The translations under genes and the position numbers were made by a program. Below are positions 25,557 through 30,099 of a stretch of 31,221 nucleotides of DNA, piece by piece. The notes below the pieces were generated by a model. The model had not been told where the DNA came from and did no database searches. It saw only the letters and a list, made by a program, of their open reading frames with translations. Position 1 is the stretch's first letter, and every line of letters begins with the position of its first letter. This DNA is from a virus: the IMG/VR virus record IMGVR_UViG_3300030382_002593, positions 1-31,221 of that record, one strand, 5' to 3'.

Positions 25557-26603
25557 TTAAGCAGGCAGAAGGAGGTGCTCCCTCTCCTCCTCTGATGCAG
25601 AAACAATCTTCCATGCTTCATTTCGCATTTTCACGCCATCGCCGAACCAGTTGTTGTTCAGTCGGGCATTTACTACAGCGTCAGAATTGTCACCAATAGT
25701 ATTGACTGCTCGACCTTTACCTTTGTAATGGGATAGATATTCTGTAACCGCATTGTATGCGTGCCATGCTGTCTTACCATTATTTCCTAATCCACTCTTG
25801 AATAAACCAACCATCGTCTCAGCATTCGCACGTTGCGAGCCATTCTGCTCACCGATTGATTTTTCCGAATCAAGATTCAACAATTTGTATGTCATGCTTT
25901 CCATGAGGTCTTCGTTCCATGCCTTTTCAGCAATAAGGTTGATTTCCTGTTCAAGCATTGACTTGTAAGTATTTTGAAGTAACAAGATTTCTCTAGCTTG
26001 AGAAGCCCTGTCCAAAACAGTCGTAGTGTGTCGTGCTTTAAATCGTGCAAATGCACTCTTTTTATTAACTGCGAACTCAAAGGTGTTTTGGCATACCACC
26101 CTAATATCACACCATTGCATAGATAGCGATGAAGTTCCGTCATGTGAGTTGGTAAGTAGGACATAAGAGTCAATCTGTTCTTCGTTATCTAACGTGATGC
26201 TCTCATTGAATTTAGCCAACAGCCAAACTCTTTTGCCATTATTTAGTGTCCCGACAGTATCGTATTTAGCTTCTCCAGTTCCAATCACAGAATCGAAAAA
26301 GGAAAAACATTCTACATTTTGTACTGGTTGATAGCCGTGACCTACAATTCCTAGTACCTCTTGGGTATCTTGGCGAACTGTTGCCACTTTATTCTCAACA
26401 ATCGTACTGACACCATCTAAACCGTAAGCCTTACCTCCACGCATGTAATACAAGGGAACTTTTTCTACTTGCCAGTCCATCCCTGTAGCCTCTATAGCTT
26501 CAACGGCAGTCATTGCGTCACCTTCAACCTTAACTCCAAGGTTGTGCCAAGGTTTTTGTCCCACATAAGCCATACCGTCGTTTTCTTCAATTCCTGAGGG
26601 CAT
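25557..26603 (-). CDS. DUF932 family phage/plasmid protein
   Basis: 348 aa with TAAGGAGG ahead of ATG. The N-terminus (YVGQKPWHNLGVKVEGDAMTAVEAI, then GMDWQVEKVPLYY) and the middle (VLGIVGHGYQPVQNVECFSFFD..., LLTNSHDGTSSLSM) are diagnostic of the DUF932/TIGR03299 family, common on phages and plasmids and of unknown biochemical role. Length is typical. It is a highly expressed early protein in some phages; here it is the largest gene in its part of the early operon and follows a 176-base structured gap. Confidence 0.88.
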   Translation of the reverse strand: MPSGIEENDGMAYVGQKPWHNLGVKVEGDAMTAVEAIEATGMDWQVEKVPLYYMRGGKAYGLDGVSTIVENKVATVRQDTQEVLGIVGHGYQPVQNVECFSFFDSVIGTGEAKYDTVGTLNNGKRVWLLAKFNESITLDNEEQIDSYVLLTNSHDGTSSLSMQWCDIRVVCQNTFEFAVNKKSAFARFKARHTTTVLDRASQAREILLLQNTYKSMLEQEINLIAEKAWNEDLMESMTYKLLNLDSEKSIGEQNGSQRANAETMVGLFKSGLGNNGKTAWHAYNAVTEYLSHYKGKGRAVNTIGDNSDAVVNARLNNNWFGDGVKMRNEAWKIVSASEEEREHLLLPA

Positions 26604-26640
26604 TATTTGCCTCCTTATAAAAAATGTTTTGTTTGTTTTT

Positions 26641-26760
26641 GATAATCGGTGTGCTTAACCTCCATTTTTAAAATTTGATTATCCCTGACCACCTATTCCC
26701 TGTTCATATCTCCTTTATCTATGTTGCTTTGGCTTTCGCAATTCAGAGTGGGGAATAGGT
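26641..26760 (-). other. Inverted repeats in the gap between DUF2958 and DUF932 genes
   Basis: ACCTATTCCC (26691-26700) pairs with GGGAATAGGT (26751-26760), a perfect 10-bp stem with a loop of 50 bases. GATAATC (26641-26647) pairs with GATTATC (26677-26683). The first loop includes AAAGGAGATATG followed by a three-codon frame, too short to be a gene. It does not fit a hammerhead: no CUGANGA core and no cleavage triplet at the stem junction. Confidence 0.5.
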
Positions 26761-26779
26761 AGTTTTGGATTTGTCATCT

Positions 26780-27085
26780 CTACATACCATCTGACATAAC
26801 CTCACTTAATGGCTTCTCAATCCAATATAAATCCCTTTCAATTCCTAGACCGAAAACTTTAGTGTTTTCTAGTTCTTCTAAGGAAAAATAACCTAGTTCG
26901 GGGAAATCTCCTTTTACATATCCATAGAAAATCTCTGTATCAGGGTCATACTCAGTTGCATACCATGTCCAATGACTCATCGGATGAAAGTATTTTGCGT
27001 AAACTGTTGGTGTCCCTATCACATCCTGTTCTGTATCATAAAGAGCAGGTAACTTCTTCTCTAATTCCTTCGTCATCAACTTCAT
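26780..27085 (-). CDS. DUF2958 family protein
   Basis: 101 aa with AAAGGAG upstream. The pattern MKLMTKELEKKLPALYDTE, then AKYFHPMSHWTWYATEYDPDTEIFYGYV, GDFPELGYFSLEELE and GLGIERDLYW matches the whole DUF2958 domain, found in plasmid and phage early regions next to replication or anti-restriction genes. Its biochemical role is unknown. The domain is complete and of normal length. Confidence 0.85.
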   Translation of the reverse strand: MKLMTKELEKKLPALYDTEQDVIGTPTVYAKYFHPMSHWTWYATEYDPDTEIFYGYVKGDFPELGYFSLEELENTKVFGLGIERDLYWIEKPLSEVMSDGM

Positions 27086-27141: not shown

Positions 27142-27819
27142 TTATAACCTCATCCTATCTACAGTGATATCAGAATCACCCTCTATAGTTTTTCGAACTT
27201 TAACGGTTTTCCCTCCAATTGACCCCTGCAATTCATGATTGTCATAGACCTTTCCTTTCAGATTTTTAACCGTAGTGTGCAAGGGGCCCCTTGGCTCCAA
27301 TTGAATATTCCTGAAGCGAATATCGTGAGAAGTCATTCGTCCCGATACTAAATCGTTGACCCTATTGTCAATAGAATCAGCAAAACTTCGTATGACTGAC
27401 TTCATCTCTTTTTCCGCAACCTTTTTCACTTCCTTCTCTGGATTTCCACCGCCGATTGCTTCATCCATATATCCTTTTGCGGGTGATAATCCTTTTAATA
27501 CACTGCCAGTATTGATAAACCATTCCAAATCCACATGCATTAGAGTCATAGAAAATGGGATTCGTATTTCGCCCGATATTACCGTGGTGCGGTTATGTTC
27601 AAATCCGAACATGTAACCGTTTTCTTGTAATGCTTCTATAACCCTGTCGCAAGTCATAATAATCCCACAATTACAAATAACATTTCCCAAATAAGTAATC
27701 TGTCCTTTAGCATTTGAGAATACTTCGGTTTCTCGTATCTCCTCCAAAGTTCTCTTTTTAAATCTATCAGCTTCGGCTTGTGTTATCTCACCAGATTCAA
27801 CCAAATTTTCGTTTGCCAT
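27142..27819 (-). CDS. Hypothetical early protein behind a hammerhead ribozyme
   Basis: 225 aa from ATG at 27819, with AAACAAGGAGG eight bases upstream. An in-frame start at 27858 is rejected because that stretch is part of the ribozyme leader. Residues 1-40 are helical and charged. The middle has ICNCGIIMTCDRVIEALQENGYMFGFEHN, with three Cys in a short span. The C-terminal third is beta-rich and basic (KGKVYDNHELQGSIGGKTVKVRK). No family is recognised. Confidence 0.65.
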   Translation of the reverse strand: MANENLVESGEITQAEADRFKKRTLEEIRETEVFSNAKGQITYLGNVICNCGIIMTCDRVIEALQENGYMFGFEHNRTTVISGEIRIPFSMTLMHVDLEWFINTGSVLKGLSPAKGYMDEAIGGGNPEKEVKKVAEKEMKSVIRSFADSIDNRVNDLVSGRMTSHDIRFRNIQLEPRGPLHTTVKNLKGKVYDNHELQGSIGGKTVKVRKTIEGDSDITVDRMRL

Positions 27820-27850: not shown

Positions 27851-27945
27851 GCCATCATCAGAGCGAGTAGACAATCTCTCGCTGACGCTCATCCGGTTTT
27901 TGACCGTAACCCTTGGGTTAAAGTTTGCATAATGAGCGTTTCGGC
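27851..27945 (-). ncRNA. Type II hammerhead ribozyme 1
   Basis: Minus-strand order: GCC, GAAA (27942-27939), stem III CGCTCAT/ATGAGCG, GTC cleavage triplet, stem I AGCGAG-10 nt-CTCGCT, CTGATGA (27861-27855), U, GGC. All invariant core bases of the hammerhead are present, A15.1 pairs with U16.1, and predicted cleavage falls between 27884 and 27883. Stem II is GCC/GGC with one bulged U. Stem III encloses two more hairpins (TAACCC/GGGTTA and CGGT/ACCG). It starts seven bases after the upstream stop and ends just before the ribosome binding site of the 225-aa gene. Confidence 0.88.
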
Positions 27946-27952
27946 TATCTCA

Positions 27953-28300
27953 TTATCTAACCCTCCAAAGGTTTCTTGTTTCATGGTTAGCGAAATAAAT
28001 TTCATTTGTTAATTGAACCGCCCAATCTTCTGCATATGTCCTAGAAAAGTCAGCTTTAAATGGGTCACATTCAGAGAGAATGTCACTGCTTGCAAGTATG
28101 GATAAGTAAGCATTATTGAGACTGTCAAATGCTTGCTCTGACATCATTCCGTTTTCGCCTGTTTTCATGTCAACCGTATTGACTATCAATTCCCACCCTA
28201 AGTTAATTACTGCTTTGTGGAATGGCGATAGGTTTTTGTTAGAGTTAACCATCTCAGCGATTCTCTTTATGTGATATAGGGCTTTAAAAATTTCATCCAT
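27953..28300 (-). CDS. Hypothetical early protein behind a hammerhead ribozyme
   Basis: 115 aa from ATG at 28300 (MDEIFKALYHIKRIAEM) with AACAAGGAG upstream. A longer in-frame version to 28393 would translate the ribozyme itself and is rejected. The sequence is helical throughout, with a Met-rich middle (MKTGENGMMSEQAF), no Cys pairs and no membrane segment. No family is recognised. Confidence 0.65.
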   Translation of the reverse strand: MDEIFKALYHIKRIAEMVNSNKNLSPFHKAVINLGWELIVNTVDMKTGENGMMSEQAFDSLNNAYLSILASSDILSECDPFKADFSRTYAEDWAVQLTNEIYFANHETRNLWRVR

Positions 28301-28328
28301 CTTAGTTCTCCTTGTTTGCGTGGTATCT

Positions 28329-28404
28329 GCCATCATCAGTATGGGTAGATTAAATCCCATAGACGGTGTAGTGAGTTCTTGAGTTCTTTCCACACCGTTT
28401 CGGC
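28329..28404 (-). ncRNA. Type II hammerhead ribozyme 2
   Basis: Minus-strand order: GCC, GAAA (28401-28398), stem III CGGTGTGG/CTACACCG (8 bp, one G-U) with an 18-base loop, GTC, stem I TATGGG-10 nt-CCCATA, CTGATGA (28339-28333), U, GGC. Predicted cleavage is between 28362 and 28361. All stems differ in sequence from ribozyme 1 while the core is identical, which is compensatory support. It abuts the stop of the upstream gene (TAAGCCGAAA), and the ribosome binding site follows within about 20 bases. Confidence 0.9.
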
Positions 28405-28839
28405 TTAATTCAAAGGAACCTTTCGGGCGAGAGCAATTAAATCAGCCAAATTTATATCAAATCTGTCCTCTTCAATTCGACCAGTTATGATGCGGACAAC
28501 AATTTCATTCATCCAAGGTGCATCAGGATTAATCTCGTTTCCAAAAGCGTTGTCCAGTTTACCTTTAGGATTAAAGACTTCTGCCATAACATCATTTTCA
28601 TCAGGTTCGTGCATATCATCTCGGCAACCTTCTGTAGCAGATAAGAGTCCTGTTAGCATCTCAGTCTCTCGTTCGTTAAGGGTAGGTTCGGAGACATCGA
28701 GGAAAGCTTCTAATGTTTGAATTGCATTATTGAAGCCCCGATTGAATTCGGTATAGGCTGTGTCTTTGGTAAAAACTTCGTGGTCTACTTTCAATACACG
28801 GATTAAGTGTTCAACTGTTGCTTTGTGTAGATTTGCCAT
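28405..28839 (-). CDS. Hypothetical early protein behind a hammerhead-like element
   Basis: 144 aa, ATG at 28839 with AACAAGGAGG ten bases upstream. The N-terminal half is helical (FNNAIQTLEAFLDVSEPTL) and the rest acidic (CRDDMHEPDENDVMAEVF), with a hydrophobic helix near the end (INLADLIALARKVPLN). No family is recognised. Its stop codon is directly joined to ribozyme 2. Confidence 0.65.
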   Translation of the reverse strand: MANLHKATVEHLIRVLKVDHEVFTKDTAYTEFNRGFNNAIQTLEAFLDVSEPTLNERETEMLTGLLSATEGCRDDMHEPDENDVMAEVFNPKGKLDNAFGNEINPDAPWMNEIVVRIITGRIEEDRFDINLADLIALARKVPLN

Positions 28840-28842
28840 TTT

Positions 28843-28877
28843 GGTACAATCCTCCTTGTTTGTTTTGTTTGTGTACC
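28843..28877 (-). promoter_or_regulatory. Hairpin with the ribosome binding site in its loop
   Basis: GGTACA (28877-28872) can pair with TGTACC (28848-28843). The 23-base loop contains AACAAACAAGGAGG, the ribosome binding site of the 144-aa gene, and the stem ends five bases from the ATG. It lies just after ribozyme 3, so it would be near the 5' end of the cleaved message. Confidence 0.45.
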
Positions 28878-28888
28878 GTTAGGGGTTT

Positions 28889-28982
28889 CCCTAGACAGCA
28901 GGGTCGGGTTTCGTGTAGTGCTTTTCTAATCCCCGACCTTGCCGTTTCGGAGGGATAACCAATCCCTCTCTCATCGGTAGGG
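28889..28982 (-). ncRNA. Type I hammerhead-like ribozyme 3, variant core
   Basis: Minus-strand order: stem I CCCTA, core CCGATGA (28977-28971), stem II G-(A)-GAGGGAT/ATCCCTC-C, GAAA (28948-28945), stem III of 14 bp (ACGGCAAGGTCGGG with CCCGACCCTGCTGT, one G-U and one A-C), GTC, stem I TAGGG. Predicted cleavage is between 28894 and 28893. The core has C where U4 is normally found (CCGAUGA for CUGAUGA); all other core positions match, including the G10.1-C11.1 pair. It begins right after the upstream stop codon. TAGGG can also pair with CCCTA just downstream. Confidence 0.72.
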
Positions 28983-29384
28983 TTATAATGCTAAGTCTGA
29001 ATATTTTTGTGAAATATATTCGTCATGGGCAAGATTCATATCCTCAACAGGAGTGAACATCCCACGTCTCATGGATGAAGCAACCCATTCATTTGCTCTC
29101 GCAAGAGCGTGCTTGGTTTTCTCATATCCTTTTAAGTTTGTATAACTTTCGAAATTCTCACAGCCCTCCATGCTGATGAATTTCACTCGCATTTTTTCTG
29201 TGATAACACAGTTGTAATTTGATGTGGCAAATCGTTTGATTGTGCCGTCTGCATGTCGTTCAATCCAAGAGATGTAATTGTCTGCGTGGAAAGTTGGGGT
29301 GAATTTCTGAGATGCGTGAATAATAATCTCGTCGCCAACCGATATTGTTGTTTCGTCAATTCCGAATTTTGCAAATGCTTTCAT
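28983..29384 (-). CDS. Hypothetical first early protein
   Basis: 133 aa, ATG at 29384 with AACAAGGAGAG upstream. The N-terminal half is beta-rich (KFGIDETTISVGDEIIIHASQ, FISMEGCENF), as in small single-domain early proteins, and the C-terminal half is helical. No family is recognised. It is the first gene after the long leader and promoter region and is therefore probably among the first expressed. Confidence 0.65.
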   Translation of the reverse strand: MKAFAKFGIDETTISVGDEIIIHASQKFTPTFHADNYISWIERHADGTIKRFATSNYNCVITEKMRVKFISMEGCENFESYTNLKGYEKTKHALARANEWVASSMRRGMFTPVEDMNLAHDEYISQKYSDLAL

Positions 29385-29407
29385 CTCGTTCTCTCCTTGT
29401 TTGTGGC

Positions 29408-29473
29408 TTTATCATCAGACCGTCAGTTGCCAACTTTGCGGTTAGCGGACTTCGGCTTTGCTGTCCGCTTTCA
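29408..29473 (-). ncRNA. Type II hammerhead-like ribozyme 4
   Basis: Minus-strand order: TT, GAAA (29471-29468), stem III GCGGAC-12 nt-GTCCGC, CTA cleavage triplet, stem I ACCG...CGGT with an inner AGTT/AACT hairpin, CTGATGA (29417-29411), U, AA. Core and triplet are correct (H17 is A), with predicted cleavage between 29442 and 29441. Stem II is only UU/AA with the same bulged U as ribozymes 1 and 2, so it would need tertiary help or may be slow. It lies just before the ribosome binding site of the 133-aa gene. Confidence 0.65.
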
Positions 29474-29820
29474 ATATTTCATATATCTAATAAATAACTC
29501 CTTAGTGTTTGTAATCAATTTTTTTTAATCCGAGACCCTTGCCTACTTCTCCCTCTGTCTCAGTCTGTCTTTGACCAAAAATGAATTTGGAATCAGACCT
29601 TTCCGCCAGAGTTTGTTTTAGCCGCCTGTACTTCATGAGAATCGTGTTAACTCATGAAGTGTCTTACCGGTCTATTAACTCGGTGTGGGACACCTCTCTT
29701 ACGTGGGAAGTCCCTTTGGTTTTCATCTATCCCTCCGCCGCTGTTGCAGGAGAGGGGGATGGTTCTGGTCGGTTACCGTTGATTGCGGTCAAGTATGTTA
29801 TCAATTACCAGTACCTGTGA
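29474..29820 (-). other. Structured untranslated leader of the early operon
   Basis: No credible gene was found between the promoter and the first early gene. Transcribed hairpins include ACTTCATGAG/CTCATGAAGT (29631-29661, perfect 10 bp), GGTGT/ACACC (29681-29693) and a GC-rich fold (ATCCCCCTCTCC with GGAGGGAT, 29729-29760). A 20-codon frame (start near 29726) and a 40-codon frame (29514-29636) exist but lack convincing coding character. The leader may regulate early expression or hold a small RNA. The further stretch 29850-29992 shows only a small hairpin (AGCAGA/TCTGCT). Confidence 0.45.
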
Positions 29821-29849
29821 AGTATCTCTGGTTCTCTTTACCTTGTCAA
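29821..29849 (-). promoter_or_regulatory. Candidate sigma70-type promoter of the early operon
   Basis: On the minus strand TTGACA (29849-29844) is followed after 17 bases by GATACT (29826-29821). The -35 box is perfect, the -10 box matches TATAAT at four of six positions and the spacing is ideal. It lies downstream of the terminator at 29993-30042 and upstream of all early genes. Confidence 0.55.
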
Positions 29850-29992
29850 GAGGTTTTGTAGGCACTAACAAAAGTAATCCTTCAGCAGAATTTTCTCTGC
29901 TAGGTACTAGACGTGAAATATTGGTTAAAAATGGGTCTGCCGAAGCCGATATTTACTGTGAGGAATTGAAACAAACGGTATTTTTAAGGGGT

Positions 29993-30042
29993 AAAAAAAA
30001 CCCCCACAATCTGGATTGGGAGCATCTTTTTTGTGAGGGTTT
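29993..30042 (-). terminator. Intrinsic terminator of the right-hand operon
   Basis: On the minus strand AAACCCTCACAA pairs with TTGTGGGGGTTT (one G-U) around a 21-base loop, followed by a run of eight T in all. It lies 36 bases past the 58-aa membrane protein gene. It is a clear rho-independent terminator and isolates the early promoter from upstream transcription. Confidence 0.88.
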
Positions 30043-30075
30043 ACTTAAACATCAACTACGAGAGAGAGAGGCTGA

Positions 30076-30099
30076 TGTTAACTGTTATCAGATGTTATC
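30076..30099. promoter_or_regulatory. Second triple-heptamer site
   Basis: The plus strand reads TGTTAAC TGTTATC aga TGTTATC, the same order and spacing as the site at 19167-19190 (20 of 24 positions identical). It overlaps the last codons of the 58-aa gene, so part of the match may be due to coding sequence. It lies about 225 bases upstream of the candidate early promoter. Confidence 0.35.

Follow-up and report, generated by a model that had tools for sequence, protein, structure and literature searches.

Hammerhead arrays at phage gene junctions have been known since 2011, when Perreault et al. described type II hammerheads, a pseudoknot and clustered hammerheads around single genes in prophages (PMC3088659). 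Three of the prophage arrays cleave in vitro and one does so in E. coli, and processing into single-gene mRNAs was proposed for them (PMC3088659). For HHphage of the haloviruses HF1 and HF2, a mapped 5′ end lies within three nucleotides (nt) of the cut site (PMC3088659). A 2017 review counts the role of prokaryotic hammerheads among the open questions of the field (PMC6155905).

We analysed a single IMG/VR virus record of 31,221 bases (the window), which is bacterial virus (phage) DNA. Head, portal and tail proteins are identifiable, the main genes lie on the minus strand, and a search for tRNAs in the window found none. An earlier sequence-only reading had proposed a hammerhead-like fold before each of four consecutive genes, which it presumed to be early. 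Structure scanning, covariance models and shuffled controls bear this out. The window holds four hammerhead elements, here numbered 1 to 4, all on the minus strand and each preceding one of the four genes (Table 1), and the types assigned to them earlier are correct (elements 1 and 2, type II; element 4, type II with a weak stem II; element 3, type I with one core change).

Table 1. Positions in the window of the hammerhead elements, the genes that they precede and neighbouring features
Feature	Position	Strand	Remarks
DUF932 and DUF2958 genes	25557-26603 and 26780-27085		Directly downstream of the array
Gene after element 1	27142-27819	minus	225 aa from the start after AAGGAGG; hypothetical
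Element 1, type II hammerhead	27851-27945	minus	Predicted cut before 27883
Gene after element 2	27953-28300	minus	115 aa from ATG; hypothetical
Element 2, type II hammerhead	28329-28404	minus	Predicted cut before 28361
Gene after element 3	28405-28839	minus	144 aa; hypothetical; 43% relative directly after a hammerhead in locus L029
Product hairpin of element 3	28880-28893	minus	TAGGG-AAAC-CCCTA, flush with the 5′ end of the 3′ product
Element 3, type I hammerhead	28889-28982	minus	U4C core (CCGAUGA); predicted cut before 28893
Gene after element 4	28983-29384	minus	133 aa; hypothetical; sub-threshold Pfam match only, no PHROG
Element 4, type II hammerhead	29409-29474	minus	Predicted cut before 29442; H17 is A

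A structure scan of both strands of the 31 kb, allowing at most one core mismatch, returned elements 1 to 4 and no fifth place. With an exact core and correctly placed stems, only elements 1, 2 and 4 were returned, and element 3 was added at one mismatch. Elements 1 and 2 were missed by a scan that disallowed an extra U in the core, because both carry one. With at least two hammerheads on one strand flanking single genes, the window belongs among the arrays. Its four array genes have no PHROG assignment; an INPHARED search with two of the four proteins returned no relatives, and in IMG/VR one of the proteins had no relatives and another had them at two loci. Protein relatives are so few that synteny with a close relative could not be used.

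Other candidate features of the region were considered. The array gaps contain no U-runs that would mark rho-independent terminators; the sole call in their vicinity has five pairs and is on the plus strand. The gap that precedes the DUF932 gene (26604-26779) contains an inverted repeat at 26681-26770, which has 20-nt arms that are 80% complementary and a 50-nt loop (folding z, −2.25); despite its strength, it has no Rfam or hammerhead match, and we rejected it as a fifth ribozyme. Among 143 other loci with valid hammerheads, 7 have a DUF932 relative, as against 0 of 83 loci without (p = 0.049), which is too weak to claim DUF932 as a partner gene of hammerheads.

Elements 1 and 2 have an exact core (C3 U4 G5 A6 N7 G8 A9, G12 A13 A14, A15.1-U16.1 and an H17 that is not G), set, as in element 4, in the type II order of stem II, GAA-A, stem III, UH, cut, stem I, CUGAUGA and stem II. 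Stems I and III are closed by loops, stem II is open, and loop I can pair with the tail in a pseudoknot (TGTCT/AGACA in element 1, ATCT/AGAT in element 2). Element 1 combines a GCC/GGC stem II with a stem III of 9 bp and the stem I AGCGAG/CTCGCT; in element 2, a GCC/GGC stem II adjoins the TAA of the upstream gene and stem I is TATGGG/CCCATA. The sequence-only reading did not mention that an extra U follows A9 in elements 1, 2 and 4. Through this U, elements 1 and 2 depart from the 2011 description, in which N10.1-N11.1 pair directly after A9 with no core insertion. In the Rfam comparison that the reading had proposed, element 1 passes the gathering cut-off of 37 for Hammerhead_II (RF02276; 27843-27946, minus strand, 40.9 bits), whereas element 2 falls below it (28321-28405, minus strand, 31.2 bits) and elements 3 and 4 have no Rfam hammerhead match. 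A covariance model (R1) built from an alignment of 51 extra-U elements, none of them from the window, scores element 1 at 56.4 bits (E = 1.7e-13) and element 2 at 56.1 bits (E = 2e-13). Judged by this model from other contigs alone, both are unambiguous type II hammerheads.

The extra U recurs in other loci. When IMG/VR was scanned with a pattern that included the extra U, 37 stretches matched, of which 23 contain elements with a valid structure, whereas the same scan with A, C or G in place of the U gave 21 stretches and a single valid one; without any extra base there were 79 stretches, 47 of them valid. Outside the window, 62 structurally valid extra-U elements were found, two of them in Ruminococcus bicirculans 80/3 (locus L114), and in 30 of the 34 loci with several type II elements the extra-U state is uniform. 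In the 51-element alignment, stems I and III vary with strong compensation and the pseudoknot is supported, with 89.1% of cells paired (62.5% after shuffling) and a covariation of 0.667 (0.177 after shuffling); stem II is near-invariant in this set because the search pattern fixed it. The longest run of pairing between loop I and the tail averages 4.33 bp, compared with 2.67 bp when tails are swapped (maximum of 200 trials, 3.04). An alignment of type I elements is likewise 98.3% paired (57.5% shuffled), with a covariation of 0.972 (0.168 shuffled). On sequence grounds, extra-U type II hammerheads are a real, U-specific subclass. A core variant of this kind scores low with generic models, so arrays like that of the window are partly invisible to Rfam.

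Element 4 is the least certain of the four. Its core is exact, with the extra U after A9, a 4-bp stem I (ACCG/CGGT), a 7-bp stem III and a TGGC/GCCA pseudoknot between loop I and the tail, and its stem II is weak, consisting of two A-U pairs (UU/AA). With filters disabled, model R1 detects it in 5.7 kb at 16.3 bits (E = 0.0017), and default filters miss it. When one core mismatch was allowed, 15 of 300 shuffled strands reached its score; with the canonical core required, none of 60 did. A hairpin on the minus strand at 29992-30056 (ACCCTCACAA...TTGTGGGGGT, followed by eight T) resembles a rho-independent terminator and looks like the close of a unit upstream of the array, so element 4 may lie in the leader of a new transcript. 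The roughly 580 bases at 29500-30080 contain no convincing minus-strand gene and several hairpins (for example, ACTTCATGAG...CTCATGAAGT), and could be a control region or replication origin.

Element 3 has the stem order I-II-III with stem I open, and runs CCCTA, CCGAUGA, stem II, CCGAAAC, stem III, GUC, cut and TAGGG; the U4C change is its departure from the exact C3-A9 core. Stem I (CCCTA/TAGGG) begins immediately behind the upstream TAA, stem II contains a single bulge, and the long stem III has 6 + 7 bp with one mismatch. Among all positions in the window, element 3 is the best match to a covariance model (R2) built from 59 phage elements of type I (window-wide E = 2.9e-4; 20.4 bits), and its structure-scan score of 22 exceeds the maximum of 15 in 300 shuffles. 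U4C is also present in structurally sound elements of four other phage loci (L219, L224, L322 and L353), and in a variant of the viroid PLMVd the corresponding CCGA core was reported to leave self-cleavage unaffected (PMC9608096). When the growing transcript was folded, stem I of the ribozyme had formed at 6 to 12 nt past the cut, and the product hairpin, which competes with stem I, was favoured once about 15 nt beyond the cut had been transcribed. The folding suggests that element 3 would cut during transcription, or else partially; partial cleavage may be expected from the core change, the bulged stem II and the competing hairpin together.

The elements are closely fitted to gene junctions. 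The sequence-only reading had each fold begin near the upstream stop codon, which is so for elements 2 and 3 (0 nt) and element 1 (7 nt) but not for element 4, which has no gene directly upstream. It gave the right first base of the downstream product for the first three elements, whereas that predicted for element 4 is 29442 rather than 29441; its account of the hairpins that open the products and of the ACAAGGAG sites is correct. From the predicted first base of the product to the start codon there are 64 (27883), 61 (28361), 54 (28893) and 58 nt (29442), the distance for element 2 being measured to the ATG at 28300.

In a survey of 145 distinct type II elements from 90 loci, found by patterns that fix part of the core so that counts describe the classes searched and not all hammerheads, 67% follow a reading frame of 50 or more codons whose stop codon falls at offset −12 to 0 from the ribozyme (8% at random). 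These stops have a sharp edge at 0, with none beyond it into the ribozyme, and the offset is −2, −1 or 0 in 63 of 141 elements. On the other side, a ribosome-binding site and start codon follow within 60 nt in 80% of the 145 elements (17% at random), and the median cut-to-start distance is 59 nt (quartiles, 55-66), close to the 58, 61 and 64 nt of the type II elements in the window. Type I elements have the same junction preference. The 54-nt leader of element 3 is type II-like for a type I element, given that survey leaders are about 32 nt for type I and about 59 nt for type II.

The claim that a serial array would be unusual did not survive: prophage arrays were described in 2011 (PMC3088659), and arrays are common in IMG/VR. 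At least two type II elements occur in 34 of the 95 locus strands that bear such elements, and a single locus of 94 bears them on both strands. A mixture of type I and type II elements is rare, being found in 2 of 66 multi-element loci. Locus L029 has seven type II elements, including near-identical pairs, in an array with relatives of the DUF932 gene and of the gene after element 3; L326 has eight type I elements, and in L219 eight successive junctions of one phage carry type II hammerheads that are nearly identical to each other. One of the eight has a U4C core, so that L219 lends itself to a comparison of core variants within a single phage. No named phage is close to L219, L326 or L029 at megablast level. 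Presence, structure, covariation within the classes, position and recurrence of the elements are direct observations, and the survey gives the mRNA-processing suggestion of 2011 a sharp geometry of abutting stop, type II leader of about 59 nt and flush 5′ hairpin.

The hairpins themselves follow from the layout in one type and not in the other. In type II, the stem I hairpin always opens the 3′ product, and the stem III hairpin closes the 5′ product. A type I 3′ product begins with a strand released from the ribozyme; its complement nevertheless follows this strand in 45 of 163 elements, compared with 13.1 expected from swapped tails (maximum of 200 trials, 24), a flush hairpin being counted at no fewer than 4 Watson-Crick pairs and a loop of up to 9 nt. 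With one element per locus, the proportions are 27.6% observed and 6.9% expected, and a mirror control upstream shows no such effect (6.8% and 4.6%). A looser test that allowed G-U pairs and long loops gave weak enrichment; the strict thresholds were chosen after its result, and the same type I set served for both. The hairpin-capped 5′ ends of the earlier reading are thus automatic in type II and enriched beyond chance in type I, and they may serve as a decay-resistant cap. The type I hairpin can be read in two ways: it may protect the 5′ end from decay, or it may draw the product away from the ribozyme and so keep the two from being religated. The pattern suggests that the cut ends are built to be hairpin-capped. 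In type I elements of three loci (L271, L344 and L355), the ribosome-binding site lies inside the product hairpin (for example, ATAGC-AATAGGAG-GCTAT), an arrangement that could tie cleavage to the start of translation.

We propose that the four elements are probably self-cleaving hammerheads that punctuate a polycistronic phage transcript into single-gene, hairpin-ended messages. Covariance models, pseudoknots, junction geometry and the survey of hundreds of elements agree with the earlier proposal that they are placed to cut such a transcript at its junctions, where cleavage is predicted; from these data we infer cleavage of the four RNAs and an effect on mRNA life or translation. As the polymerase passes a junction, the hammerhead would fold and cut just upstream of the next ribosome-binding site. 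At type II elements, the upstream message would terminate in the stem III hairpin followed by a single nucleotide bearing a 2′,3′-cyclic phosphate, and the downstream message would begin with the stem I hairpin and a 5′-OH, 58-64 nt before the start codon. At element 3, a second copy of CCCTA downstream would pair with the released strand, yielding a type II-like product from a type I layout. The likely outcome is one-gene messages with hairpins at both ends and matched leaders. The effect of cutting on message life may go either way, because the 5′-OH product of the glmS ribozyme is degraded by RNase J1 in B. subtilis (PMC3997798). More tentatively, and with somewhat less than even confidence, we suggest that phage hammerhead arrays are a general mRNA-finishing system selected for flush end hairpins, in which type I elements acquire a hairpin of their own in the product, which removes the new 5′ end from the ribozyme. 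Element 3 would be such a case, perhaps a type II element permuted in place, and the extra-U core would be a distinct working class.

Whether all four elements belong to this scheme can be questioned, since Rfam recognizes neither element 3 nor element 4, element 4 is borderline and both are off consensus; they might be ordinary intergenic hairpins or decayed ribozymes, leaving only elements 1 and 2 as real. We consider this rather unlikely, because element 3 is the top type I match in the window and exceeds every shuffle, U4C recurs in other phage loci and both elements sit in matching junction geometry. A different role for the same ribozymes is suggested by their abutting stop codons, which lie at −2, −1 or 0 in so many type II elements, never go further into the ribozyme and adjoin elements 2 and 3 exactly. 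A ribosome terminating there would cover the 5′ strand of the ribozyme and block its folding, so that cutting would occur mainly on untranslated messages and serve as a sensor. Compact phage genomes would, however, place genes against the ribozyme anyway, and we regard translational gating as unlikely.

The glmS precedent (PMC3997798) would also allow cleavage to lower expression, the 5′-OH end exposing downstream genes to RNase J-type decay. It is hard to reconcile with the flush hairpins, kept by type II and enriched in type I, which are the opposite of what an exonuclease entry site needs; a phage would moreover gain little from destroying its own transcript at each gene, and we think destabilization very improbable. 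The near-identical hammerheads of L219 and the near-identical pairs of L029 could instead point to selfish spread, with hammerheads moving as short junction repeats that help to shuffle small genes and cleavage being secondary. The four copies in the window, however, share little beyond the core except for a 29-nt match of 83% between elements 1 and 2, and stems change with compensation in both the extra-U type II and type I alignments; structure, not sequence, is therefore kept, and a selfish origin seems highly doubtful. Punctuation of a polycistronic transcript by self-cleavage remains our preferred explanation.

An extra nucleotide described by De la Pena and Flores in 2001 reportedly lies next to A9. 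An extra core nucleotide in a viroid hammerhead is on record in that work, as cited in a later review (De la Pena and Flores 2001; PMC6155905). The main text of Perreault et al. describes the core insertions A6a, U13a and 2a/2b and not an extra U after A9 (PMC3088659). Our literature search found no report of a cleavage assay on a type II hammerhead with an extra U at the stem II junction, nor any prior report of the extra-U core, the mixture of types or the type I product hairpin.

Compared with known systems, the window is a fresh example of the kind of array described in 2011. The prophage clusters (PMC3088659, Figure 3; the Agrobacterium tumefaciens triple, Clostridium scindens and Azorhizobium) likewise have tandem hammerheads flanking single genes or short blocks; the window differs from them in its four consecutive junctions, its combination of types II and I, its extra-U cores and a U4C type I element with its own product hairpin. 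Rfam RF02276 has the permutation, core and pseudoknot tail in common with element 1, which passes its cut-off, but it treats the extra U as inserted and forms only two of the three base pairs of stem II, and elements 2, 3 and 4 fall below or outside it. HHphage (PMC3088659) is a variant hammerhead of an archaeal virus, located 13 nt upstream of a start codon; unlike the elements of the window, it stands alone, and its core insertion is another one, close to C3. The U4C change of element 3 is shared with viroid hammerheads with core variants (PLMVd and CtaHVd-LR1, both with CCGA variants), which belong to plant circular RNAs and to another hammerhead type, whereas the elements of the window lie at phage mRNA junctions.
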